This document shows, piece by piece, positions 29,512 through 46,357 of a stretch of 64,000 nt of DNA (position 1 is the first letter of the stretch; the number at the start of each line of letters is the position of its first letter). This stretch comes from Longicatena caecimuris. GTDB lineage: Bacteria > Bacillota_I > Bacilli_A > Erysipelotrichales > Erysipelotrichaceae. The stretch lies in NCBI RefSeq assembly GCF_004341945.1, contig NZ_SMBP01000002.1, positions 62,001 through 126,000 on the forward strand. The letters are read 5' to 3'. The position numbers were made by a program, and so were the translations under genes. The notes below the pieces were generated by a model that worked only from the letters and a program-made list of their open reading frames with translations, ran no database searches and was not told where the DNA came from.

Positions 29512-31669
29512 ATTTCTCGTAAGAGGTACGACCGATTATCCTCAACAATTTTTCATCTAAAATCAACAAATTCAACTCACGTACCTAACAAGAGGTACGA
29601 CCAAGACATCACCTCGATGGTGTCCGTCGAAAGAATTTCAACTCACGTACCTCACAAGAGGTACGACCGTCAAAGGTAACAAATAAGTTATCACTTGGAC
29701 ATTTCAACTCACGTACCTCACAAGAGGTACGACTTTGGACTCAATATGCACTTTACATATATGACTGATTTCAACTCACGTACCTCACAAGAGGTACGAC
29801 CATCATCCTGAAAAAATCATCATTTCCACGAACATTTCAACTCACGTACCTCACAAGAGGTACGACGCATACAATGATGTACATCCCATATCATCTCCGA
29901 TTTCAACTCACGTACCTCACAAGAGGTATGACTCCTACACAATTGGTGCTGGTGCCTCTGTAAAAATTTCAACTCACGTACTCACAAGAGGTACGACGGT
30001 GATGTTGTCAAAGAAAAGAAGACATTAACTATTATTTCAACTCACGTACCTCACAAGAGGTACGACCTCTGCTAAACGTTCTATTAGTTGTACTATATCC
30101 ATTTCAACTCACGTACCTCACAAGAGGTACGACGCGAAGTTCACAACTGCAATAAACAAATTTCCTATATTTCAACTCACGTACCTCACAAGAGGTACGA
30201 CAAAGATTAATCATGCTAGCTCAAATATTAAAAAAATTTCAACTCACGTACCTCACAAGAGGTACGACAGAAGCAAAACCGAAAGCGGCCAAAACAGACA
30301 AATTTCAACTCACGTACCTCACAAGAGGTACGACGGAGCATCAGAGGACGATATGAAGCTCCTACTTATATTTCAACTCACGTACCTCACAAGAGGTACG
30401 ACGAGATATTGCCCTTATAAAATGATGGAGGTTGATATTTCAACTCACGTACCTCACAAGAGGTACGACTGCAGCATCATTATCGAAGATGGTTATGTGA
30501 AAATTTCAACTCACGTACCTCACAAGAGGTACGACGTTGCACCTACACCAGCAATAGCATTTGTTTTTTATTTCAACTCACGTACCTCACAAGAGGTACG
30601 ACGGAGAAGTCGATTTCGCTGATGAATTTAAGGATATTTCAACTCACGTACCTCACAAGAGGTACGACCTCTTTTGCAAGATCACAGAGAGCACTCTTGA
30701 ATATTTCAACTCACGTACCTCACAAGAGGTACGACAACATAATCCATTTTAAGAGCATATGAAAATATATTTCAACTCACGTACCTCACAAGAGGTACGA
30801 CCTAGAGTATTCAAAAGTTCCAAAAGCATTAAAAATTTCAACTCACGTACCTCACAAGAGGTACGACAACTCCGCACCAGAAACACTAGATACGTTAGCA
30901 ATTTCAACTCACGTACCTCACAAGAGGTACGACTACAGTTGATCAGAAACTAAAATTCTTTGATAAAATTTCAACTCACGTACCTCACAAGAGGTACGAC
31001 CCAAAGCGGCTGGGGCAAGGGCATCATATATGATTATTTCAACTCACGTACCTCACAAGAGGTACGACATTTCGCCATCCTGAAACCGCACCAGCTAAAT
31101 CAATTTCAACTCACGTACCTCACAAGAGGTACGACAAAGGATCTGATAAATGGTCACATACAAATAAAAATTTCAACTCACGTACCTCACAAGAGGTACG
31201 ACAAACTTTTCATTTATTTCAATTCCTATAAAATTATTTCAACTCACGTACCTCACAAGAGGTACGACTACAGTGTACCAGCTGTTTTAGTAAAAGGGCT
31301 CATTTCAACTCACGTACCTCACAAGAGGTACGACGCGAAGTTCACAACTGCAATAAACAAATTTCCTATATTTCAACTCACGTACCTCACAAGAGGTACG
31401 ACATATTAAATCACTAAAAGAAAAAGAGAAATCACAATTTCAACTCACGTACCTCACAAGAGGTACGACAAAACGATTAAGCAATCATTATCCACCTTTA
31501 TTATTTCAACTCACGTACCTCACAAGAGGTACGACACTTGTACCTGTTACGTTGAATAATTTAGCAATAATTTCAACTCACGTACCTCACAAGAGGTACG
31601 ACCACAAAAATATCATATTCCTTTCATTTTTTGATAATTTCAACTCACGTACCTCACAAGAGGTACGAC
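29512..31669 (-). CRISPR. Type I-C CRISPR array 1: 32 full repeats plus one truncated
   Basis: Repeats are 33 bp, on the plus strand starting ATTTCAACTCAC and ending AAGAGGTACGAC, with GTACCTC/GAGGTAC able to pair; spacers are 32-37 bp and the period is about 67. In the canonical I-C sense (minus strand) the repeat starts GTCG and ends with the handle TGAGTTGAAAT, so transcription runs from the cas2 side. The far end is degenerate: a 21-bp repeat with an internal deletion (29512-29532), then variants at 29569, 29900 (one base) and 29966 (one base lost). The spacers at 30134-30168 and 31335-31369 are identical. Confidence 0.99.
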
Positions 31670-31783
31670 AGCAAATATTGCTTTTAATCTTGACATTAGT
31701 AACAACATTTGCATTAAATTAACATTAAAATTGAATTTCTATCAAATAAAAGCATAAAAACCCAATTAAAATAATCAAAAATA
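31670..31783 (-). promoter_or_regulatory. Leader of CRISPR array 1
   Basis: AT-rich 114 bp between the first repeat and the cas2-side hairpin. On the minus strand the junction reads ATTTGCT directly before GTCG, and TTAATGTTAA lies further upstream. Both words recur in the leader of array 2. Confidence 0.75.
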
Positions 31784-31833: not shown

Positions 31834-32124
31834 TTAAAAAATCAAAGGTTCCGTAACAACGAATGATGGTTTTGCTCCTATATGAATAATCTTATTTTTA
31901 TAATTATTCCCTAAAAGATAGAATCGTAGGCTGTCTTTACTTTCATCGATTTCATTAGATAATATATGCTGCAATTCAACATATTCTTTTTGATTCACAT
32001 TGCATTCAAACACTGAATTCTGTACTCGCAATCCATAATTCAAACAATGCTTAGCTACCTTCCTTAAACGTTTTCTTCCAGCTTTATCCTCTGTATTCAC
32101 ATCATATGTTATTAATACCATCAT
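31834..32124 (-). CDS. cas2: Cas2 endoribonuclease/adaptation subunit
   Basis: 96 residues from MMVLITYDVNT; an ATG at 32130 shares its A with the cas1 stop (TGATG) and is an alternative start. The I-C Cas2 pattern is clear: ITYDVNTEDKAGRKRLRKVA with the conserved Asp, then NYGLRVQNSVFEC. It forms the spacer-integration complex with Cas1. Last gene of the cas operon, just before the array leader. Confidence 0.97.
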   Translation of the reverse strand: MMVLITYDVNTEDKAGRKRLRKVAKHCLNYGLRVQNSVFECNVNQKEYVELQHILSNEIDESKDSLRFYLLGNNYKNKIIHIGAKPSFVVTEPLIF

Positions 32125-32129
32125 AATCA

Positions 32130-33161
32130 TCACTTCCACAAAAATGGTGCATATTCATCTAAATCACCTCTTAAGTACCGAGCTAATAATTGTGCTTGTA
32201 CAAAAGGCACCATACCCCATTCAATTTTTTCTTTTAGATAAGGATGTGTAATCTGTTCGTTTTTCTTGTTTTGCCAAGTTGCCAGAAATATTCGTCTACC
32301 TTCTTTATTTAAAAGAACAGCATTATTTTCTTTCTTTATAAAATGAGCACTTGTTAAAATTTTCTTATTTATAAGTGTTATAACGAATCTGTCTACCATG
32401 ATAGCTCTTAATTCTTCCATAAGATCTAAGGCTAATGAAATTCTGCCAGGTCGATCTTGATGTAAAAAACCAACATAAGCATCTAACCCAACACTTTCAC
32501 ATGCGGAAGCACAATCATGAGATAACAATGTATAACCAAAAGAGAGTAATGCATTTACGTTATCTTCTGGCGGTCTTTTATTTCTGCCATGAAAGAAAAA
32601 TACATCTTTTTGCTGTAATATGAGTTCATCTAATACACCAAAATAGGCAACAGCAGCTTTTCCTTCAAAGCCCAATAACATTTTATGATCATTTGCACTT
32701 TGTAAATCGCACAAACATTCCTGCATGATGGAAGCAGCATTTTTAATAGCATTAACATCCACACGCATCGCGTGATCACGCACTACCCTAGCTAATACCC
32801 ACTTTGCATTATATATCTTTCCTATCAACATATTTTTCGCGATGGCAAGACTTTCCATCTCTGAATCAGATATCCGATATTGTTTTTTTCGCAATACCAC
32901 ATTACCGTATTGCTCACCATTTACTCTAGCTAAAAAGCGTCCATGTGAACTCAAAAAAGTCAATGCAATATTTCTTTGAGCACAAGCGTGCATTAAGCCT
33001 GGGCTTGCCCCTGCATAACCAAAAGTGATAATTCCTTCTAAATTATGAAAAGGTATACGTTTTTCTTTATCATCACCTATTTGTATCTTTACCGTTTCAC
33101 CATCTAGCGATAAATAGGCATCTGGTGACGTAATATATAAAATATTATTTAATTTTTTCAT
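32130..33161 (-). CDS. cas1: Cas1 integrase, type I-C
   Basis: 343 residues from MKKLNNILYI at 33161, chosen because GAGGAA lies about 8 bases upstream; it overlaps cas4 by 17 bases. Conserved metal-site blocks are GFEGKAAVAYF (Glu), YVGFLHQDRPGR (His) and ALDLMEELRAIMVDR (Asp/Glu). It integrates prespacers at the leader end with Cas2. Confidence 0.97.
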   Translation of the reverse strand: MKKLNNILYITSPDAYLSLDGETVKIQIGDDKEKRIPFHNLEGIITFGYAGASPGLMHACAQRNIALTFLSSHGRFLARVNGEQYGNVVLRKKQYRISDSEMESLAIAKNMLIGKIYNAKWVLARVVRDHAMRVDVNAIKNAASIMQECLCDLQSANDHKMLLGFEGKAAVAYFGVLDELILQQKDVFFFHGRNKRPPEDNVNALLSFGYTLLSHDCASACESVGLDAYVGFLHQDRPGRISLALDLMEELRAIMVDRFVITLINKKILTSAHFIKKENNAVLLNKEGRRIFLATWQNKKNEQITHPYLKEKIEWGMVPFVQAQLLARYLRGDLDEYAPFLWK

Positions 33162-33828
33162 CTTCTGCTTCCTCATGCAATTTTCTCTTGATGTAGGTAT
33201 TCACTGATTCTTTATTAGCTATCTCAGGCAGACAAATGTTTTGTAAGGAACATCGTTTGCATTTTGCTGAAGGTTTTACTTTAGGTGTATAAGATTTTTC
33301 ATAATATGCATGCATCTCTTGAAATGCGCTTTCTACTTGTTTCCGTAATGCTTCTGAAAACTCCACTTCTTCTCTCCTAGCAATTTCATGATAAAACAAA
33401 TATCCTTTGTCAATATTGCAATCAAACATTTCTTCTAAAGCGATTGCCTGTGTACATAATTGCAAACGATCCATTTCAGTTGTTTTAGGTTTTCCTTTTT
33501 TATATTCCACAGGATAAGGTTTCCATGTGCCTTCCCTATTGAATAATTTTACCCCTTGCTTATCTTTATGAAATTCCACCACATCACAAAATCCATGTGC
33601 TTTTAATGCATAAGAGTGCACTTCTAAACTTCTTGTGATTAAGATATCTCCTCTTTTTTCAGTAAATGATCCATCGTGGGCATGTTCATGAACTATCGAT
33701 CCTAAAACTGTTAAATCGTTATCTTCCCACTCTTTTTCAATGTGTATTAATGCCCACTGTCTACGACAAAAGGAAAAGTGCTGAATACCTGCTATATCAA
33801 GGAAATCTACATCTTCCCATTTATTCAT
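33145..33828 (-). CDS. cas4: Cas4 RecB-family exonuclease
   Basis: 227 residues. The Fe-S cysteines are present: one in FCRRQWALIHIE near residue 21 and three in CKRCSLQNICLP at about 190-201. Nuclease residues are VHEHAHDG (His), CDVVEFHKD (Asp) and VEYKKGKPK (Glu, Lys). Cas4 trims prespacers and checks the PAM in I-C. It overlaps both neighbours by a few bases. Confidence 0.97.
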   Translation of the reverse strand: MNKWEDVDFLDIAGIQHFSFCRRQWALIHIEKEWEDNDLTVLGSIVHEHAHDGSFTEKRGDILITRSLEVHSYALKAHGFCDVVEFHKDKQGVKLFNREGTWKPYPVEYKKGKPKTTEMDRLQLCTQAIALEEMFDCNIDKGYLFYHEIARREEVEFSEALRKQVESAFQEMHAYYEKSYTPKVKPSAKCKRCSLQNICLPEIANKESVNTYIKRKLHEEAEDEKIK

Positions 33829-34672
33829 AAGTTTCAGGTTTTAAATCAGGATAATCTTCCGTATAAATTTCATAATCATTTATATCAGAAGACATGCTTT
33901 TCTTGACATCTATCTTTAAAGTACGATGAACCTTTGCAGATGAATATTGGCCATTTGCACAATTATGCTTCCACCAAAACATCTTTAGCACTTCCATACT
34001 ACCATCAGGACGTGCAGCAGAACAATCATTTTCAAATAATGTACGCAGTGCCTCCTTAATAACCTCAGCATCTTCTTCGCTAAAGCCTGTCTTTTCTGCT
34101 AATTGACAATTAATACTTCCCTTAAATACATAAATACCAAAATCTACACGATGCTTTGTCCCCATGGTGTCTGAGCTTTTCTTATCACCACTTTCACCAT
34201 TTACGCTCTTTGTAATCTGCAATTCAGATACTTCCGCCGGTTCAATGCTATATGCTGATTGTACAGATACTGGACCTCTAACACTGACACTGACGCCAGC
34301 TGTTGAACCTTTTTCTTTAAAGGCAAATACTTGCCCAAAACTTCGTACATCTAGCCATGATTTACATGCAGCTTCTGCATAAAGTCCTCTATTCTTAGCT
34401 TTCTTTGCAGCTACGACTTGCTCATTATTATCGGCTCTTTCTTTTAAACTATCATATCCATCTGTTGCTCTATCTTCAGATTGTACAAAAATATCGTATC
34501 CCATATCTTGCATACGATTTCTGATTTTTCTTTTAATACAAACATCAGATACTTCTCCATACCCATCTAAGGTCGTTCTTGGACGGTTTCCATTTAATGG
34601 ATCACCATTAGGATTCGCATAGCGAACAGAAAATACTACTGCAAAATCAATCTTGTTTTTTAAGGTACTCAT
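33821..34672 (-). CDS. cas7c: Cas7c (Csd2) Cascade backbone protein
   Basis: 283 residues from MSTLKNKIDFAVVF at 34672 (GCGAGG 9-10 bases upstream, inside the end of cas8c). Csd2 signature FSVRYANPNGDPLNGNRPR is near the N-terminus and VRGPVSVQSAYSIEP in the middle. Several copies coat the crRNA spacer. One base separates it from the cas8c stop. Confidence 0.96.
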   Translation of the reverse strand: MSTLKNKIDFAVVFSVRYANPNGDPLNGNRPRTTLDGYGEVSDVCIKRKIRNRMQDMGYDIFVQSEDRATDGYDSLKERADNNEQVVAAKKAKNRGLYAEAACKSWLDVRSFGQVFAFKEKGSTAGVSVSVRGPVSVQSAYSIEPAEVSELQITKSVNGESGDKKSSDTMGTKHRVDFGIYVFKGSINCQLAEKTGFSEEDAEVIKEALRTLFENDCSAARPDGSMEVLKMFWWKHNCANGQYSSAKVHRTLKIDVKKSMSSDINDYEIYTEDYPDLKPETYE

Positions 34673-34673
34673 A

Positions 34674-36611
34674 TTATTTATCCTCGCTTTCTTCTTGTTT
34701 ATTTGTTTTATATCGCAATTCATCAAGCTGTGCGCAATAGCTTAAAATAAAACATTTGTCTAATGCACCATCCAACTGATATTTCTCTTCATTCAGTAGT
34801 GTGTTAGCCAGTTCATTCATTTCTTTGTTCAAGACTTTAAAACGATAATTTTTATTCTTTCTTAACCTTACCTGGTAAGGTTGTAATCTTAGATAAAGTT
34901 GTTCCCAAGTTTCTAAAGGTCTTAGCTGAAAGCGTCGCATATAGCGTTCCGCATTAGTTTCTCTATCTCTTACGCCCATAGTTTCTAAAGCTTCTTTTTC
35001 TACTTCTTGCGCATAAGCAAGTAAGCGTCCCCATAAATAACTAATATCCTTTTTTTGTTTATCTAGTCCCATGATCCAGGCCTCCTTTTCTGACGCTATA
35101 TCATTCAGATATTTTCTTATAACAGCACAACCGATATGTAAATCAGCATCATATTCTCCACTTGACATAGTATAGGGTTTATATAAGCGTTGGCAAATAT
35201 GATCCACTAATGCATAAGGCAGTTTACGTCCATCCATGATACAGCTTAATAATTCCTTTGTTGTTGCTTTTTCTATTTCTTTTTTAACGCTATTACCATA
35301 TGCGCAATGGATAATACTCTTAATCGAAGGCGTGCCGGTGTAACGTATACGTTGGTAGATTTCTTTCCCTTTTGCATCCATATGTTTTTCAAAACGAATA
35401 ACATTTTGCCATGCACAGGATGCATACCACTTGCCTATACGTTGTAAGAAAGCAGAGCCTTTTAATTCACTGTAATACGAAATTGAAAGTCTTCCTGTAG
35501 TGGCAGAATCTAAAGCCATAATGACAACATCTTCATCTGGATCTTGAAATCTTTTGGTATAGTATCCTGATAATGCTTTATTTAATGCAAACGCATAATC
35601 TTCCTGTATATCTATTTTAATCTCATTTCCATCATCAAAATCAAAGATATTGTCTAGTGGGTTGATAAGCTCAACTTTTCTTAATCCCCATGCAACGATG
35701 GCTAATTCACCAGAACCATATAGCTTTCCTTGACGTTCAATCAGCCATTTCAAGGCATTATGTATTTTCTGGGATGCTTCATAGCCAATACCTGCACATT
35801 GTGCACTATCAGTTAATAGTCCTAAGTAAGTGAAATTGGTTGTATCATTTGATGATATCAATTTCGCTTTATCAGCAACATTGCGTATCTTATTAGGATG
35901 TTTTGTAGATAGTGAGGTATTTTCCCCACTAATATAGCAAAGCCCTTTTTTTTCAATCATCGGTTCATAGTATGCAGAAAAAGACTTTATTAAATCTGCT
36001 TCCATCCATAGTTTATGAAAGTGCTCATCTTCATCCTCTACAATAAAACGAAGTACTGCACTGCTCTGTTCTGTTACTAAATTGAAGATATCAATGCTAT
36101 CTGTGTCAATCATACGTTTTTTGCTAAGTCTTCCATTCTCATCAACAATCAGAATGCCTTGCTCTACAAGATCATGCAACAATGTTCCTTTATCCAAATA
36201 TGTATAAAGCGTTTCTAAAAGTAATGTTCCCGGTTTTCCTTGTGCCGATTGGATCCATGCCTGCAGTTGTTGCATATAAATCGCATGGCTATCATAAAGC
36301 TTTTTTTCATCCGAATATTGTGCAAGATTTTTTGCCATGAAATAAAGCTTATCAAACAGTGGGTGGGGAACCTTGTTGGCATCCTTACCCGAACGACATG
36401 AAGAATCGATGGTACTTGGTATCATTGTTTTCGCATCCGCTTTCTGAATAAGTTCTGCTTGTATACTGCCATCATGAAACAACGTACATTCGATATGTGC
36501 ACTTACGGTTGTATAACCAATTGGTAATAATATCCGATGATTATTATCGGCAATTCCTACCTTATCCAAACAATTATCATAAGTTTCACATAGCTTTACC
36601 GCCCAGCTCAT
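34674..36611 (-). CDS. cas8c: Cas8c (Csd1) large subunit
   Basis: 645 residues, somewhat longer than the usual 580-600. Csd1-like blocks are VADKAKLISSNDTTNFTYLG and SATTGRLSISYYSELKGSAF. In I-C it recognises the PAM, and an internal start gives the small subunit (Cas11c); Met codons in the C-terminal third could serve. The start overlaps the cas5c stop by 4 bases. Confidence 0.95.
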   Translation of the reverse strand: MSWAVKLCETYDNCLDKVGIADNNHRILLPIGYTTVSAHIECTLFHDGSIQAELIQKADAKTMIPSTIDSSCRSGKDANKVPHPLFDKLYFMAKNLAQYSDEKKLYDSHAIYMQQLQAWIQSAQGKPGTLLLETLYTYLDKGTLLHDLVEQGILIVDENGRLSKKRMIDTDSIDIFNLVTEQSSAVLRFIVEDEDEHFHKLWMEADLIKSFSAYYEPMIEKKGLCYISGENTSLSTKHPNKIRNVADKAKLISSNDTTNFTYLGLLTDSAQCAGIGYEASQKIHNALKWLIERQGKLYGSGELAIVAWGLRKVELINPLDNIFDFDDGNEIKIDIQEDYAFALNKALSGYYTKRFQDPDEDVVIMALDSATTGRLSISYYSELKGSAFLQRIGKWYASCAWQNVIRFEKHMDAKGKEIYQRIRYTGTPSIKSIIHCAYGNSVKKEIEKATTKELLSCIMDGRKLPYALVDHICQRLYKPYTMSSGEYDADLHIGCAVIRKYLNDIASEKEAWIMGLDKQKKDISYLWGRLLAYAQEVEKEALETMGVRDRETNAERYMRRFQLRPLETWEQLYLRLQPYQVRLRKNKNYRFKVLNKEMNELANTLLNEEKYQLDGALDKCFILSYCAQLDELRYKTNKQEESEDK

Positions 36612-37333
36612 ACCTCATCACCATCCTTTAAGAAGGAAAAATTCTGACCGGGAATGAACAGCTTTTCTTCTTTCATAACACGCAAATCATTTTGAATAGG
36701 ACAATCCTGTTGTTGCGGGAATTCAATAATGCCATGCTTCATCTGTGGATAGAAGAACAGCGCTCTTAATTTCTCATCCGCACTTTGCTCCGGATATTGA
36801 TAACTATGAAACATTAAGCCAAACGTCATGGCCGCAACATCATCGTAAGCTGAGCTTCCTTCTCCAAATATGCATGGTTTTACTTCTGCAACACATTCTC
36901 TGGTACCAAGAAATACATCACGCTTGCCACCTTTTTCCAGCATACGTTTAGCAATTTGATAATGTTTATCTTCGTTGCGATCTTGTTTCAAATCGGGACG
37001 ATTTTCATTCCATACAAAATGTGCTTCAATCTGATACTCTACATCATACAAATAGGTGTAAAGGGATAGCGAATTCCCTTGCGATTTGCTGATGGCACCA
37101 TCATAAACCAAAGGCCGCATTCCTTTTGCTTCTGTTTGAATTTGTTTCATCACACGACACTTATCGATAATCCATTCGATAGTTGGCTTCCAATATATTG
37201 CTTCTACAATACCTCGTAAAGCACCATAGGTTGGAATTTGATATGACATCTTTTCTCCGCCCATACGTGTGATAGGATCCGTAAATAATGCATATCGTCC
37301 CTGCACTTTAAATTGAATTTTATTTTCTTTCAT
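36608..37333 (-). CDS. cas5c: Cas5c (Cas5d) crRNA-processing subunit
   Basis: 241 residues. The N-terminal RRM-like part has RYALFTDPITRMGGEKMSY and PTYGALRGIVEAIYWKP, typical of Cas5d. In I-C this protein, not Cas6, cuts the repeat at the base of its hairpin and leaves the 11-nt 5' handle. It must recognise the TGAGTTGAAAT handle found in both arrays and in the pseudo-repeat at 40175-40228. Confidence 0.95.
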   Translation of the reverse strand: MKENKIQFKVQGRYALFTDPITRMGGEKMSYQIPTYGALRGIVEAIYWKPTIEWIIDKCRVMKQIQTEAKGMRPLVYDGAISKSQGNSLSLYTYLYDVEYQIEAHFVWNENRPDLKQDRNEDKHYQIAKRMLEKGGKRDVFLGTRECVAEVKPCIFGEGSSAYDDVAAMTFGLMFHSYQYPEQSADEKLRALFFYPQMKHGIIEFPQQQDCPIQNDLRVMKEEKLFIPGQNFSFLKDGDEV

Positions 37334-37351: not shown

Positions 37352-39811
37352 TCATAGAAAATAACCATCTTTTTGCGCCATCATGTGAAAACCACATGTT
37401 TCATCATAATAACCATCATTCAGTATCATCACCCCCAAGTCTTTTATAGTTATAAAGCAATCTTGATAGTAATTCCCTTGTGTGTATACTTCAATGCTAT
37501 AACGCTGTGCTTGTTTTAATAACATATCAATGCGATTATAATCTTTTATATCCGCACATAATTCTGTGATGATGTCTTCACCTTTACCATATGGTACGAT
37601 TACCGTTGTTGTTGCATTAGGTATTACTTCAAATAAATCACCAGCTTTACGAAAAGCTTGCCGCATAACACATTGTTTTTCCTTATCATTACTAAATTGC
37701 TTTATACTTTGTTCATTTTCTGACAATAAATCATATAGATTGTAAGTCACTTGTCCAACTTTTTTAATATAATCTGTTTCGATGGCTGATTCGCTCTTAT
37801 AAGCAGAAAGGTTTTCATAGTAATATTTATAATAGCAATGCAATGTCTTTTGTGATGCGATATTATTATCATATTGAAGTGGATCATCTCTGAATTTTTT
37901 CAATACTCGAAGGGTCATTGCTTTTGCTCTGGCAATTTCTGATAGTCTTGATAAATTTTCATCAGCATCAGAAAAAATATACGTAATCCCTTCTTCATAT
38001 TCACGATTTCGATTACAGCGTCCAGCTGCTTGAATAATACTGTCTAAACCTGTACAAGCACGCCACACAGTTTCAAAACTTAGATCCACACCTGCCTCAA
38101 TCAAAGATGTGCTGACACAAATGACTTTCGTATCTTTCTGTAAAGCTGCAGTCATCTCTTTAATCATATCTTCTTTATGCTGTGCACACATTGTATTTGC
38201 CAAGAAGAATATTTTATAATCTTTATCTAAAAGAGTTTTAAGTTCTTGGTAAACATCATAAGCTCTTTTCTTTTGGTTTAGGATGATTAGAGCTGATTGG
38301 CGTAATTGTATATCCTCGCTAATGGCCTTCACTAATTCATCTGTGTGCATTATACACTGTGTCTTATCTTCATAGCGGACACGTTGAAAAGCTTCATTAT
38401 ATATTTTTAAATGAGAAAGTATTTCTTCATAAGGAGGAATAGCGTTTAATTTATTTGGAGGAAATGGCTGTGTAGCAGAACACAATAAAACAGTAGACCC
38501 ACAAAATTCTGTTAAATAGTCAATAGCTGTTTGAAACATATTCTTACAAGACAGTGGTAATGATTGAATTTCATCGAATATCAAAATCGCATCTGTCAAT
38601 TGATGCATTCTGCGAATATTTTGTTTTGACCCATGGAAAAGTGCATTTAATACTTGCACATAACTTGTGATGATTACCGCATGATCCCAACGTTCTGTGA
38701 ATAGTTGATGCTGTTCATCATCAATAACAAGACTAGAATAGTGCTCTAAGATGATGGCTTCATCCTTTTCGTCCAATACATCTCTTAGGTTAGCTGCATT
38801 TTGCGTCAATATTGACAAATAAGGTATTACATAGTAAATATGACGAATATGTTTATGTTTTTTTGCATGTGCTAATGCAAATCGTAAACTTGCTAACGTT
38901 TTTCCAGAACCAGTAGGAGCAGCCAGTGTGTAAATTCCTTGCTTTTTTTCTCCGGCCTGATAACATTCTAGAGATATTTGATTTCGTAACTGATTGATTT
39001 CTGTTTGCTTGTTTCCTTGTTGAAGAGTTAAAAGATGTGCATTTAGTTTTTCTTCTAATGTTTCCCAGATATGCAGGCGGTTCTTTTCAAAATAGGGAGG
39101 TTGAAGTACATTATAAGATAAAGTAGGATGATTCATGAATAAATATGTATCATAGCAATCTGCATCTCGTAATGCACTTTGTAATAAGCGCGTTTGCAAT
39201 CCTAATTGAAAATACAAAAGTGTTCCATTTTTCTTTTTACAACCTTGCTCTTCTAAGAATGGTTTTAATTTTATTACATGTTCTTTCATGCGTAAAAAGA
39301 GTGTTTGATATTGTTGTACAGCCTCTTGAATGAGTGTTTGCAAATACCTTTTATCAAATATGCTGAAAAAGGTATTTACGCTTTCTTCATAATCTAATAT
39401 TTCTTTCTTTGTCATTATTTTTGAATGAAAAGGCATTTCTTTATCCGGATTATACATATCATAAAGTTTTGAATGATGGGATAATATGATTAAACTTACG
39501 GATTCTATAAAGCATTTTTGTATAACTTCATTAGTATTCTTCAAATTATAGAAATGATCATATAGATAAATAGCACCTGCAAAAGCATGATTTATTTTTT
39601 CATTTGTGTCTTCATCTTTCATTAAATATGCTTGAAAAGAGGATTTAGCTTTTCCTAAATCATGCAGTATTCCGCTTAAATAGCCAATTTTATCAAGTTC
39701 ACAAGTGGTTAAAAAAACTTGGCATAAAGCTGCTGTATTTTCTTCATGCTGTTTTAGTGTTTGTGAATATTCTGTTTTTTTGATGCGATGTGCTAAGATT
39801 GGATTATTCAT
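37352..39811 (-). CDS. cas3: Cas3 HD nuclease-helicase
   Basis: 819 residues. HD residues are His22, His50-Asp51 (ILHDLGKA), His75 (NHAFAGA), His112/113 and Asp218. The helicase has Walker A APTGSGKT (298-305), FDEIQSLP (Asp413-Glu414) and an arginine-finger motif QAAGRCNRN. It degrades the target strand after Cascade binding. It lies 18 bases before cas5c and 46 bases after a 52-codon ORF. Confidence 0.97.
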   Translation of the reverse strand: MNNPILAHRIKKTEYSQTLKQHEENTAALCQVFLTTCELDKIGYLSGILHDLGKAKSSFQAYLMKDEDTNEKINHAFAGAIYLYDHFYNLKNTNEVIQKCFIESVSLIILSHHSKLYDMYNPDKEMPFHSKIMTKKEILDYEESVNTFFSIFDKRYLQTLIQEAVQQYQTLFLRMKEHVIKLKPFLEEQGCKKKNGTLLYFQLGLQTRLLQSALRDADCYDTYLFMNHPTLSYNVLQPPYFEKNRLHIWETLEEKLNAHLLTLQQGNKQTEINQLRNQISLECYQAGEKKQGIYTLAAPTGSGKTLASLRFALAHAKKHKHIRHIYYVIPYLSILTQNAANLRDVLDEKDEAIILEHYSSLVIDDEQHQLFTERWDHAVIITSYVQVLNALFHGSKQNIRRMHQLTDAILIFDEIQSLPLSCKNMFQTAIDYLTEFCGSTVLLCSATQPFPPNKLNAIPPYEEILSHLKIYNEAFQRVRYEDKTQCIMHTDELVKAISEDIQLRQSALIILNQKKRAYDVYQELKTLLDKDYKIFFLANTMCAQHKEDMIKEMTAALQKDTKVICVSTSLIEAGVDLSFETVWRACTGLDSIIQAAGRCNRNREYEEGITYIFSDADENLSRLSEIARAKAMTLRVLKKFRDDPLQYDNNIASQKTLHCYYKYYYENLSAYKSESAIETDYIKKVGQVTYNLYDLLSENEQSIKQFSNDKEKQCVMRQAFRKAGDLFEVIPNATTTVIVPYGKGEDIITELCADIKDYNRIDMLLKQAQRYSIEVYTQGNYYQDCFITIKDLGVMILNDGYYDETCGFHMMAQKDGYFL

Positions 39812-39857
39812 ATATGCCCCACTTTTAATATGCTTTCATTATACCACAATCACTTCT

Positions 39858-40016
39858 TCAAAATAAATTAGATAATATATGTTTTATCCCACAAAAGATA
39901 ACACTTATAAATTTAGCTATAATATTTTCTTTTGCCATTATTTCGAGCTTAATCTCTTTTTCTTTTTTATGATAACCTGAACAATCTTCTTCTTTTGATT
40001 TATACTCTGCCTTCAT
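39858..40016 (-). CDS. Putative 52-aa protein at the head of the cas operon
   Basis: A 52-codon ORF on the cas strand. AAGGAGAG lies 6 bases before the ATG, the best ribosome site in this operon. Residues 1-30 are highly charged (MKAEYKSKEEDCSGYHKKEK then more Lys/Glu). Residues 31-52 are hydrophobic and amphipathic (NIIAKFISVIFCGIKHILSN). It is the first gene after the cas promoter and 46 bases before cas3. I recognise no family. It could be a regulator, a Cas-associated small protein, or a toxin kept silent by the CRISPR-like RNA upstream. Confidence 0.6.
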   Translation of the reverse strand: MKAEYKSKEEDCSGYHKKEKEIKLEIMAKENIIAKFISVIFCGIKHILSNLF

Positions 40017-40039: not shown

Positions 40040-40060
40040 TTCTTATTTCATATTATTTTA
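40040..40060 (+). promoter_or_regulatory. TTC PAM plus 18-bp target of the CRISPR-like RNA
   Basis: TTC at 40040-40042 is directly followed by TTATTTCATATTATTTTA (40043-40060). The guide-like sequence of the RNA at 40157-40174 reads TTATTTCATATCATTTTA, one mismatch at position 12. The target covers the -10 box and the expected transcript start of the cas operon. Confidence 0.8.
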
Positions 40061-40082
40061 TCACAATTTTTTTTATTGTCAA
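40055..40082 (-). promoter_or_regulatory. Promoter of the cas operon
   Basis: On the minus strand: TTGACA (40082-40077), 16 bases, TGA-TAAAAT with extended -10 (40060-40055). The transcript would start near 40048, about 30 bases before the 52-aa ORF. Confidence 0.8.
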
Positions 40083-40114
40083 ATCTTCTAAACAAGAAAA
40101 TATATCAATACAAA

Positions 40115-40228
40115 GCAAAAGCTCCGATTTTGAATAAATCGGAGCTTTTGCATTACTAAAATGATATGAAATAAATTTCAACTCACAGCTCTTATAATTT
40201 AGTCATATATCTAAATATAAGAACCGAC
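40115..40228 (-). ncRNA. CRISPR-derived guide-like RNA (CreR/CreA-type candidate)
   Basis: On the minus strand a 54-nt pseudo-repeat (40228-40175) starts GTCGG and ends with TGTGAGTTGAAAT. It thus keeps the first four bases and the full 11-nt handle of the true repeats, while the stem is enlarged (GGTTCTTATATTTAG with CTAAATTATAAGAGCT, two G-U and one bulge). An 18-nt guide-like sequence follows (40174-40157) and then a 16-bp perfect hairpin (40151-40115) that can end the RNA. The guide matches the cas promoter next to a TTC PAM. Cas5c processing and Cascade-mediated repression of cas are inferred. Confidence 0.8.
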
Positions 40229-40234
40229 TTTAAT

Positions 40235-40240
40235 AGTATA
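40235..40240 (-). promoter_or_regulatory. -10 box of the guide-like RNA
   Basis: TGT-TATACT (extended -10) on the minus strand; its predicted start (about 40228) coincides with the 5' end of the pseudo-repeat. The -35 is poor. Confidence 0.5.
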
Positions 40241-40340
40241 ACACAGCCTTAAACTCTTTTTATTTACTTTTATAAAAAATCATTGATATTAAATCTTTTT
40301 GTACAATAATAGCTTGAGGTATTATCTTTATAATTGAAAT

Positions 40341-43059: not shown

Positions 43060-44196
43060 ATGGATACAGAAAAACAACGAGCCTTTATCATTCGTTTTCT
43101 GTATTTTTCCATTCTAATGCTCCTTTTTTATGTCTTTTTTCAATATATCATCCCCTACCTTTTGCCATTCATTCTTGGTTTTTTCATCGCCTTTATGTTA
43201 CGTCCCATTATCCGTATTTTTGTAAGACTTACAAAGGGACATGAAAAGTTTTGGAGCATTGTTATCATTTTATTTTTTTATGCATTATTAGGTATTATAT
43301 TAAGTTATTGCGGTATGAAGATATACTTTTGGACGCAAGATGTGCTTATTAAAATACCCGAATGGTATCAAAACACGATGGAACCCTTTCTTCAAGATTC
43401 TTTCTCTCATGTCCAAGTAGTTTGGAAGGATTATGATGGAGCGATATCAAGTGCTATCACGTCCATTTGGGAAGGCCTACAAAATTTTCTTTCAGGATTT
43501 GTTACTGATTTATCGCAAAATATTCTAAGCATATTAAGTAATTTACTATCTTCAGTACCTAAATTCCTTTTAACCTTTTTTATTGCCATATTTTCTAGTT
43601 TCTTTTTTACTTCTGATTACCATAACCTTTCTAATTTCTTTTTCCAACAATTCTCACCAGAAACACAAAAAATCATATTATCTATACGTTATTTTGCCAC
43701 TCATACCTTTTTAAATATGTTTATAGCTACAATCAAATTAATGCTATTAACATTCTTTGAATTAGGCATAGGTCTTTCTATTTTAGATATAAAAAAAGCC
43801 TGGCTGATAGCCTTAGGCATTACGGTTTTTGATGTACTTCCCGTATTAGGTACCGGAGGTATTATGATACCTTGGATTCTGTTTTCTTATGTCCAAGGGC
43901 AACATAAATTAGCCATAGGATTATTAATATTATATTTAATTATTACTTTAATACGTAATATAGTAGAGCCTAAATTAATGGGAAAGCAGTTAGGACTGCA
44001 TCCTTTGTTAATGCTGTTATGTATGTATGCAGGCGGTAAATTATTTGGTGTGTTTGGATTTATGTGCATGCCGATGGTGTTACTAATCCTTAAAAATCTT
44101 AATGAAGAGGAAATTATACATTTGTATAAATGTTATAATTTACATGAATCAAAATGCAACATATCAACTCACGCATCTCACAAGATGCGACAATAG
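43060..44196 (+). CDS. AI-2E family transporter (YtvI/PerM-like)
   Basis: 378 residues with about seven or eight helices; conserved blocks are FFTSDYHNLS, LGIGLSILDIKKAWLIALG, VLPVLGTGGIM and EPKLMGKQLGLHPLLML. The last 11 codons (ISTHASHKMRQ) and the stop are formed by the first repeat and spacer of CRISPR array 2. The original stop has therefore been lost or the array lies directly at the 3' end. Members export signals or ions; the function here is not known. Confidence 0.88.
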   Translation: MDTEKQRAFIIRFLYFSILMLLFYVFFQYIIPYLLPFILGFFIAFMLRPIIRIFVRLTKGHEKFWSIVIILFFYALLGIILSYCGMKIYFWTQDVLIKIPEWYQNTMEPFLQDSFSHVQVVWKDYDGAISSAITSIWEGLQNFLSGFVTDLSQNILSILSNLLSSVPKFLLTFFIAIFSSFFFTSDYHNLSNFFFQQFSPETQKIILSIRYFATHTFLNMFIATIKLMLLTFFELGIGLSILDIKKAWLIALGITVFDVLPVLGTGGIMIPWILFSYVQGQHKLAIGLLILYLIITLIRNIVEPKLMGKQLGLHPLLMLLCMYAGGKLFGVFGFMCMPMVLLILKNLNEEEIIHLYKCYNLHESKCNISTHASHKMRQ

Positions 44197-44850
44197 AAAC
44201 GAATATCACGAATTGGCAACGCCGGCAATTTCAACTCACACATCTCGCGAATACGATCTGTAAAGATGATACTTTTATGAGCTACTTTTTTGTATTTCAA
44301 CTCACACATCTCGCGAATGCGACCGTTCCATAGTGATAGCACTAAGTAAATACTCGGATTTCAACTCACGCTTCTTACAAGATGCGACCTTTTGCAGATT
44401 CCTTTTTCAATGTTTCTTTCAGATTTCAACTCACGCTTCTTACAAAATGCGACTGGTCCACCAGCAGGAGGTAAAACAACATATGTTAAAATTTCAACTC
44501 ACGCTTCTTACAAAATGCGACCGTGCGGAAAGAGCCACTGCAAAAAACCTAAAGATTTCAACTCACGCTTCTTACAAAATGCGACTGTAAAAATATATGT
44601 CCAAGTTCATGTAGTATTAGATTTCAACTCACGCTTCTTACAAAATGCGACGGATGGATGACTCTACTGCGATTAAAGGACATGAATTTCAACTCACGCT
44701 TCTTACAAAATGCGACATCACCAACCGTTATATTGGTACTAATAAGATTTTTATTTCAACTCACGCTTCTTACAAAATGCGACTTAGGTTCCTTACCTGA
44801 TGGTTTGTGTAGAACTGCTATTTCAACTCACGCTTCTTACAAAATGCGAC
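44161..44850 (-). CRISPR. CRISPR array 2 (cas-less): 11 repeats, 10 spacers
   Basis: Repeats are 30-31 bp and share ATTTCAACTCAC with array 1. The eight leader-side repeats (44358 onward) read ACGCTTCTTACAAAATGCGAC in their variable part, except that the one at 44358 has AAGATGC. The oldest (44161) has GCATCTCACAAGATGC with an intact stem. Repeats at 44228 and 44294 differ again (ACACATCTCGCGAAT). The handle TGAGTTGAAAT is identical to array 1, so the same Cas5c/Cascade could use it. The first repeat overlaps the permease gene. Confidence 0.97.
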
Positions 44851-44951
44851 AGCAAATTTTCATTAAAATCATATCATTTAAAGAAGAAACGCTTAACATT
44901 AATATAATTTTAGAAAAATAGCTCTATAAATATCAATATTAATATGACAAA
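44851..44951 (-). promoter_or_regulatory. Leader of CRISPR array 2
   Basis: About 100 AT-rich bases. On the minus strand the junction is ATTTGCT before GTCG, as in array 1, and TTAATGTTAA is also present. Confidence 0.65.
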
Positions 44952-45018: not shown

Positions 45019-46326
45019 TTATTCCCACTCAATGGTCGCCGTAGGTTTTGGTGACAGGTCATAACAAACACGATTCACATTCTTAACTTCCTTCAAGATA
45101 CGATCCGTTATCTTCAACAATACCGGCCAGTCAATCTGCTCAATCGTCGCCGTCATAGCATCCACCGTATTCACCGCACGTAAAATCACAGGATATTCAA
45201 AACATCTCGCATTATCACGTACACCTACAGATTTAAAATCAGGCACAACTGTGAAATACTGCCAAACCTTTTTATCCAATCCAGCATTATGGAATTCCTC
45301 ACGCAAGATTGCATCTGCCTCACGCACTGCCTCTAAGCGTTCCTTCGTAATAGCCCCTAAACAACGCACACCCAAGCCTGGGCCAGGGAACGGCTGACGG
45401 AATACCATCTCATCCGGTAATCCCAATTCAAGACCACATGCACGTACCTCATCCTTAAACAGCTGACGCAATGGTTCCACTAACGCAAAACCAAGATCTT
45501 CAGGCAATCCTCCAACATTATGATGAGATTTGACCATTTTTGCTGTTTTTGTACCGCTTTCGACAATATCTGGATAAATCGTACCCTGTGCTAGGTAATC
45601 AATACCCTCTAGCTTTCTTGCCTCTTCTTCAAATACACGAATAAATTCCGTACCGATAATCTTACGTTTCTTTTCAGGATCCGCAACATTTTCTAATTTT
45701 CCTAAGAATCTTTCACTCACATCAACATAAATCAGATTCGCATCCAATTGATTTTTAAACACTTCCACAACACTTTCTGACTCACCTTTGCGCATCAAGC
45801 CATGGTTTACGTGTACACATACTAATTGTTTACCGATTGCTTTAATCAATAAAGCTGCCACAACAGAGCTATCCACACCACCAGATAATGCCAGTAATAC
45901 TTTTTTATCCTTTACCTGTTCACGAATCAACTCTACCTGATCCGCGATAAAGTTTTTCATATTCCAATTTGTTTCACATTTGCAGTCATCAAATACAAAC
46001 TTCTTCAAAACTGCAAGACGCTCTTCCTTATCCTCACTCCATGCATTCAATACATCCTCACATGTTGCCAACGCATGCGCAACTGCCATTACCGGATAAC
46101 CGTGTTCATAAACGTGCGCATCAACATCAATACGTTCCCCATCTACGATATGATTAGGTCCACCATTGATGATAATACCTTTCACATTTGGCAATTTTGC
46201 CAGTTCTTCCTTCGTGATATCATGTGGATAAATTTCACTATACACGCCTAATTCACGAATTTCACGAGCTAATCTAGTGTTTTCACTGCTGCCCAAATCT
46301 AGAATTACAATCATGTCTTGTTTCAT
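45019..46326 (-). CDS. guaA: GMP synthase with degenerate glutaminase domain
   Basis: 435 residues from Met at 46326 (GGAG 9 bases upstream), about 75 shorter than typical GuaA. The ATP-pyrophosphatase part is complete: SGGVDSS (148-154), GTIYPDIVESG, RQPFPGPGLGVRCLG and the dimer C-terminus NRVCYDLSPKPTATIEWE. The N-terminal amidotransferase part is shrunk to about 115 residues. The nucleophile motif GICYG reads AVAHA (Ala83 for Cys), and the region with the catalytic His-Glu is missing. XMP amination with free ammonia or a separate glutaminase is expected. Confidence 0.92.
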   Translation of the reverse strand: MKQDMIVILDLGSSENTRLAREIRELGVYSEIYPHDITKEELAKLPNVKGIIINGGPNHIVDGERIDVDAHVYEHGYPVMAVAHALATCEDVLNAWSEDKEERLAVLKKFVFDDCKCETNWNMKNFIADQVELIREQVKDKKVLLALSGGVDSSVVAALLIKAIGKQLVCVHVNHGLMRKGESESVVEVFKNQLDANLIYVDVSERFLGKLENVADPEKKRKIIGTEFIRVFEEEARKLEGIDYLAQGTIYPDIVESGTKTAKMVKSHHNVGGLPEDLGFALVEPLRQLFKDEVRACGLELGLPDEMVFRQPFPGPGLGVRCLGAITKERLEAVREADAILREEFHNAGLDKKVWQYFTVVPDFKSVGVRDNARCFEYPVILRAVNTVDAMTATIEQIDWPVLLKITDRILKEVKNVNRVCYDLSPKPTATIEWE

Positions 46327-46357
46327 ATTCATTTTCTCCTTCTTTTCTTCATAAACA

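Follow-up and report, generated by a model that had tools for sequence, protein, structure and literature searches.

A predicted CreR-type autorepressor RNA encoded upstream of a type I-C cas operon

Introduction

Does a type I-C CRISPR-Cas locus encode an RNA that directs its own Cascade to the promoter of its own cas genes? The question is raised by a short intergenic region of Longicatena caecimuris, contained in the 64,000-nucleotide stretch of DNA analyzed here (the window), for which a sequence-only reading had proposed a guide, placed behind a crRNA-type handle, that targets the promoter of the neighboring cas operon. CreR autorepression has been described for types I-B, I-E, and V-A and is relieved by competing crRNAs and by anti-CRISPRs (PMC13131331, PMC12737573). 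Type I-C is absent among the CreR subtypes named in those two papers (PMC12737573, PMC13131331); the survey of Shmakov et al. 2023 (doi 10.1093/nar/gkad495, cited in PMC10651486) may list predictions for it. We conclude that the region very probably encodes a CreR-type autorepressor RNA of type I-C cas genes, predicted from sequence to combine a single degenerate repeat with a guide of 17 nt and with a hairpin or terminator that takes the place of a second repeat.

Results and discussion

The type I-C operon and its arrays

The operon runs from 39811 to 31834 on the minus strand, and its products (Cas3, Cas5c, Cas8c, Cas7c, Cas4, Cas1c, and Cas2) fit type I-C family models, in agreement with the subtype assigned by the sequence-only reading. 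The two CRISPR arrays that flank the region have unlike repeat stems and a common handle (Table 1). The stem of array 2 reads GTCGCATTTTGTAAGAAGC..., as opposed to that of array 1, and its units at the 44147-44322 end are diverged. A GuaA-like GMP synthase of 437 aa is encoded at 45019-46332 on the minus strand; judged by eye, its amidotransferase half looks degenerate, with AVAHALA at the place expected for the catalytic Cys motif.

Table 1 Positions of the cas genes, arrays, predicted guide RNA gene, and target site in the window.
Feature	Positions	Strand	Support
cas3, first operon gene	37352..39811	-	TIGR01587, TIGR01596 above cut-offs
cas5c, cas8c, cas7c, cas4, cas1c, cas2	31834..37333	-	TIGR01876, TIGR01863, TIGR02589, TIGR00372, TIGR03640, TIGR01573 above cut-offs
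CRISPR array 1, repeat GTCGTACCTCTTGTGAGGTACGTGAGTTGAAAT	30034..31672 (may begin before 30034)	-	Repeat search, repeat consensus
CRISPR array 2, other repeat stem, same handle	44147..44853	-	Repeat search, handle search
Orphan ORF of 52 aa (ribosome site AAGGAGA) in the interval from targeted promoter to cas3	39858..40016	-	Dinucleotide shuffles
PAM TTC (40040-40042) and 18-nt protospacer TTATTTCATATTATTTTA (40043-40060)	40040..40060	+	Unique in genome
Targeted promoter: TTGACA (40082-40077), 16-nt spacer, TAAAAT (40060-40055)	40055..40082	-	Consensus match only
Terminator-like 16-pair hairpin with T-rich tail, in place of a second repeat	40115..40151	-	Terminator scan
Guide TTATTTCATATCATTTTA, 18 nt	40157..40174	-	15/15 against target at positions 1-17 minus 6 and 12
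crRNA handle GTGAGTTGAAAT	40175..40186	-	Same in both arrays of the genome
Degenerate repeat, hairpin of about 15 pairs adjoining the handle	40186..40226	-	Folding
Extended -10 promoter TGTTATACT, predicted for the guide RNA gene	40235..40243	-	Consensus match only, no usable -35 seen, absent from the promoter scan's list

A solitary repeat unit with a short guide

The predicted guide RNA gene lies directly upstream of the cas operon, outside the arrays, and carries the handle of the same system. When the 2.95-Mb genome was searched with this 12-nt handle, exact matches were confined to the two CRISPR arrays and to 40175-40186. Re-reading the region left the coordinates of the handle, guide, TTC, and protospacer as first given. 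The crRNA-type handle itself stands, and there is more to it than a handle, as the hairpin at 40226-40186 adjoins it. Transcription is predicted from the sequence to start at about 40228. The terminator scan returned one terminator against 0.1 expected, and the entire guide RNA folds with a z-score of -9.84. A match to the ohsC RNA in Rfam (40112-40182, minus strand) scored 48.6 bits, whereas the gathering score is 50; it was carried mainly by the terminator hairpin, had a weaker counterpart on the opposite strand, and was discarded.

The target lies on the -10 box of a promoter upstream of cas3

The guide is identical to the protospacer at 17 of 18 positions, with the sole mismatch at position 12, as the sequence-only reading had it, and pairing ends after position 18. 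The protospacer overlies the -10 box of a promoter upstream of cas3 that has 11 of 12 consensus bases and a TG ahead of the -10, so that the earlier placement of the target on the -10 of a TTGACA/TAAAAT promoter is borne out. Target and PAM together occur once genome-wide, and the chance expectation of such a PAM-flanked match in the region is about 5e-6 (analytic). In the window, guide and target lie on opposite strands.

At the sequence level the element is not conserved: a DNA search of the region returned no counterpart in 60 relatives (no second species of the genus among them), in plasmids, or in phages. One explanation to be weighed is that the solitary repeat unit was left by a mobile element and is an RNA anti-CRISPR (Racr), and prophage solitary repeat units that act on type I-C are known (PMC10651486). 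The element, however, sits directly upstream of the cas operon with a guide that matches the promoter; guide and target were found in none of the viral contigs, and the region is unlike any phage or plasmid record searched. We give the Racr explanation almost no weight.

Guide and target co-vary in ten unrelated type I-C loci

Searches for Cas5c and Cas7c at the level of family, order, phylum, and class supplied type I-C loci, and additional loci came from a Cas7c scan over 84,980 species genomes. A Cas3 query of genome contigs gave no relative, and the Cas7c alignment was used as the query. The phylum sample contributed no new locus above the Cas5c cut-off and the class sample three, one of them positive (L155). 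The collection held 88 loci with cas3, two Holdemania loci being counted twice; upstream sequence was present in 84, and the search space was the 600 nt upstream of cas3. The search was given its form once the window had been inspected, so the window serves as the hypothesis and the other nine positive loci as its test.

Solitary canonical handles were found upstream of cas3 in 12 of the 84 loci. Two were set aside: that of L138, apparently the last unit of an array that lies 66 nt away, and that of L105, which lacks a repeat-like context. Every one of the ten remaining solitary repeat-like handles is followed by a guide that matches the upstream region of its own cas3. These are the window locus, a locus from the same family (L062), one from the same class (L155), a Roseburia MAG (L070), two Lachnospiraceae MAGs (L122, L144), Treponema socranskii (L130), and MAGs of Ruminiclostridium (L118), Clostridia (L114), and Clostridiales (L115). 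The ten bacteria are distantly related and have the arrangement in common, with wholly different sequence letters; guide and target co-vary between unrelated genomes. The sequence-only reading had set co-variation of guide and promoter against independent divergence and expected the TTC to be kept. Across the 84 type I-C loci examined, guide and target co-vary in the ten unrelated loci, with TTC in nine and TTT in one (L114).

L136 is a possible eleventh case, having a solitary handle at most 240 nt upstream of cas3 and a guide that matches at 13 of 15 positions with TTC; given this score and a target close to the contig edge, it was excluded from the ten.

Three five-base blocks are kept

Type I effectors flip out bases, as is established from the structure of Cascade. 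We scored each guide over the 15 positions 1-5, 7-11, and 13-17. Over the ten guide-target pairs, only 4 of these 150 positions are mismatched, as against eight pairs mismatched at position 6, eight at position 12, and six at position 18; at each of positions 19-24, six to nine of the ten pairs are mismatched. This distribution indicates that selection keeps three five-base blocks and ignores the flipped bases. It also agrees with the earlier argument that every sixth base is left unpaired and that the mismatch at position 12 costs nothing; positions 6 and 12 are the sole freely varying ones inside the match, as expected from Cascade pairing. The three-block rule across ten scattered loci is apparently without an earlier statement in the literature cited here.

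Six loci score 15/15 and four score 14/15. Under the same scoring, 1,856 array spacers reached a maximum of 13, below the 15/15 of the window guide, and 830 cross-genome trials, in which the positive guides were set against the cas3 upstream regions of other genomes, reached a maximum of 12. These controls bear on the explanation that the element is a decayed, functionless array remnant with a spacer that fits the promoter either accidentally or through self-targeting. The repeat is indeed solitary and degenerate, with arrays on both sides, but array spacers never score as high as the guides, and mismatches fall at flipped positions only in a 15/15 match that belongs to a set of ten unrelated loci. 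The match moreover ends at 17-18 nt, versus about 34 nt for a self-acquired spacer, and co-variation already disfavors this explanation, which we regard as very improbable.

Proposed mechanism

The anatomy of the gene, the identity of the handle, the PAM, the pairing rule, and the co-variation over ten loci can all be read from sequence, and the last three support the CreR/CreA-type autorepressor proposed in the sequence-only reading. As we envisage it, an RNA of about 110 nt would start near 40228 and end at the hairpin at 40115. Cas5c would cut this RNA at the base of the repeat-like hairpin and leave it with a normal handle and a short guide, and the loaded Cascade would bind the TTC-flanked -10 site through blocks 1-5, 7-11, and 13-17 and so block RNA polymerase. 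So short a match probably does not license cutting by Cas3. The promoter would be released once Cascade became scarce, was occupied by array crRNAs, or was blocked by an anti-CRISPR.

On this evidence, type I-C joins the subtypes for which RNA-guided control of the system's own cas genes is strongly supported, and its ten loci are spread across the I-C tree. The common rule, in which the blocks are kept, positions 6, 12, and 18 onward are free, and a hairpin follows soon after, resembles a natural design rule for binding without cutting. It makes testable both the shortest match needed for repression by type I-C Cascade and the induction of cas by anti-CRISPRs in these bacteria.

Comparison with known systems

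The window locus has the sequence marks of CreR: a repeat outside the arrays with the system's own handle, a partial, PAM-flanked match to the cas promoter, and co-variation. As in CreR, a crRNA-like RNA encoded outside the arrays is predicted to guide the host's own effector to its own cas promoter through partial pairing. The differences are the subtype, the combination of one repeat with a terminator-like hairpin, the fixed 17-nt three-block match, and the orphan 52-aa ORF between the target and cas3.

The CreA of CreTA, in its one-repeat form, is similar in anatomy. The creA of H. hispanica has one repeat and a terminator and pairs partially with its promoter, at positions 1-5 and 7-11 (PMC8501985). 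The pseudo-repeat, guide, terminator, TTC PAM, and free position 6 are shared with the window element, but CreA represses an RNA toxin in type I-B and two blocks suffice there (PMC8501985), whereas three are kept here. No CreTA-type small RNA toxin was recognized under the controlled promoter at the window locus, and a peptide ORF is present instead.

With Cas9, a scaRNA represses a promoter without cutting by means of a short match (PMC9458426), and, as cited in PMC10651486, a natural single-guide RNA turns Cas9 into a repressor of the Cas9 operon itself (Workman 2021). These share with the window element a CRISPR-derived RNA and a short promoter match, with repression predicted in our case, and differ in having a type II effector and RNA architecture. 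Racr elements, of which RacrIC1 is a type I-C example, likewise consist of one repeat outside arrays (PMC10651486). Racrs, however, are viral and inhibit by mimicry (PMC10651486), whereas the present element belongs to the cas locus of the host and its guide matches the cas promoter; we found no instance of it in the viral, phage, and plasmid collections.

An orphan ORF between the targeted promoter and cas3

The sequence-only reading missed both the 52-aa ORF and a possible second promoter beside cas3. A closed ORF of this length occurs in 0.4% of dinucleotide-shuffled leaders, a share that falls to 0.03% when such a ribosome site is required as well; the C-terminal part of the product is a predicted amphipathic helix with a hydrophobic moment of 0.55. 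Just before cas3, at about 39840-39850 on the minus strand, is an extended -10, TGGTATAAT, which may be a second promoter that supplies cas transcripts outside the control of the guide. Given the ORF and this extended -10, what the guide controls may be the peptide together with no more than a share of cas expression.

In CrePA, Cascade and a crRNA-like RNA repress a promoter ahead of a protein gene, with CreP typically a KilA-N protein (PMC12737573). The window locus is similar in that a Cascade-targeted promoter, here predicted to be repressed, fronts a protein gene, and by analogy with CrePA a toxin role for the peptide is possible. The 52-aa peptide, on the other hand, is without a known domain, whereas CreP typically has KilA-N (PMC12737573); searches of Pfam and NCBIfam assigned to the ORF neither KilA-N nor any other domain.

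An alternative to autorepression is that the guide mainly controls a membrane-active toxin peptide in the manner of CreTA or CrePA, with cas expressed mostly from its own proximal promoter; loss or inhibition of Cascade would then release the peptide and harm the cell. The position of the ORF directly after the targeted promoter, its strong ribosome site, its rarity among the shuffles, the amphipathic C-terminus, TGGTATAAT immediately ahead of cas3, and the precedent of CrePA all speak for this alternative. Against it, we found no relatives of the peptide, and no toxin family, in 273 family genomes, NCBIfam, Pfam, plasmids, and viral contigs. When the leaders of the other nine loci were read by eye, none held a comparable peptide, and in four of the nine the target is within 60 nt of cas3. 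In the window itself, the terminator scan found no terminator between the ORF and cas3. We consider control of mainly a toxin unlikely. Likewise doubtful is a fused CreR and CreP-like module, in which cas and a new, membrane-active peptide of 52 aa would share the Cascade-targeted promoter; in that case, a block of Cascade would let one RNA switch raise cas expression and free a peptide toxin.

In the leader of the Treponema socranskii locus, a 60-aa ORF contains HDIGKENPSRQKYLQ, which is similar to the HD motif of the neighboring Cas3; this ORF, which follows the targeted promoter, is apparently a fragment of cas3.

Variation among the ten loci

Around the pairing rule that underlies the proposed autorepression, the ten loci vary in several respects. 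The handle follows that of each genome's own arrays, being GTGAGTTGAAAT in the window, GTGAATTGAAAC in Treponema socranskii, and GTGGATTGAAAT in most others; in the Ruminiclostridium MAG it is GGGGATTGAAAT, compared with GTGGATTGAAAT in the array, and the contig of the Clostridiales MAG is without an array. Decay of the repeat ranges from slight, in the Ruminiclostridium MAG, to almost complete in others. A promoter-like site with at least 10 of 12 consensus bases lies across or just before the protospacer in seven loci.

Guide and target share a strand in seven of the loci, whereas in the other three they lie on opposite strands. The opposite strands in the window would suit an inverted repeat, either bound by a transcription factor or folding into a hairpin within a read-through transcript. 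The mixed orientations speak decisively against this explanation, which also accounts for neither the handle nor the PAM nor the six-base period and which we hold to be exceedingly improbable. In a Cas5-Cas7-Cas1 tree, the nine positives that have all three genes require nine changes, compared with a shuffled mean of 8.6; the positives are thus unclustered, which points to repeated origin or quick turnover.

A stable hairpin follows the guide in all ten loci, mostly starting at positions 23-27. In one of the Lachnospiraceae MAGs (L122), this hairpin (GTCGCATTGGTG...CATCAGTGCGAC) is like a repeat stem minus its handle, and may be a second repeat in transition to an ordinary hairpin. In the locus from the same class (L155, genome G731), the target is farther from cas3 than the guide gene, which is placed some 100 nt ahead of cas3 and so inside the would-be cas leader transcript.
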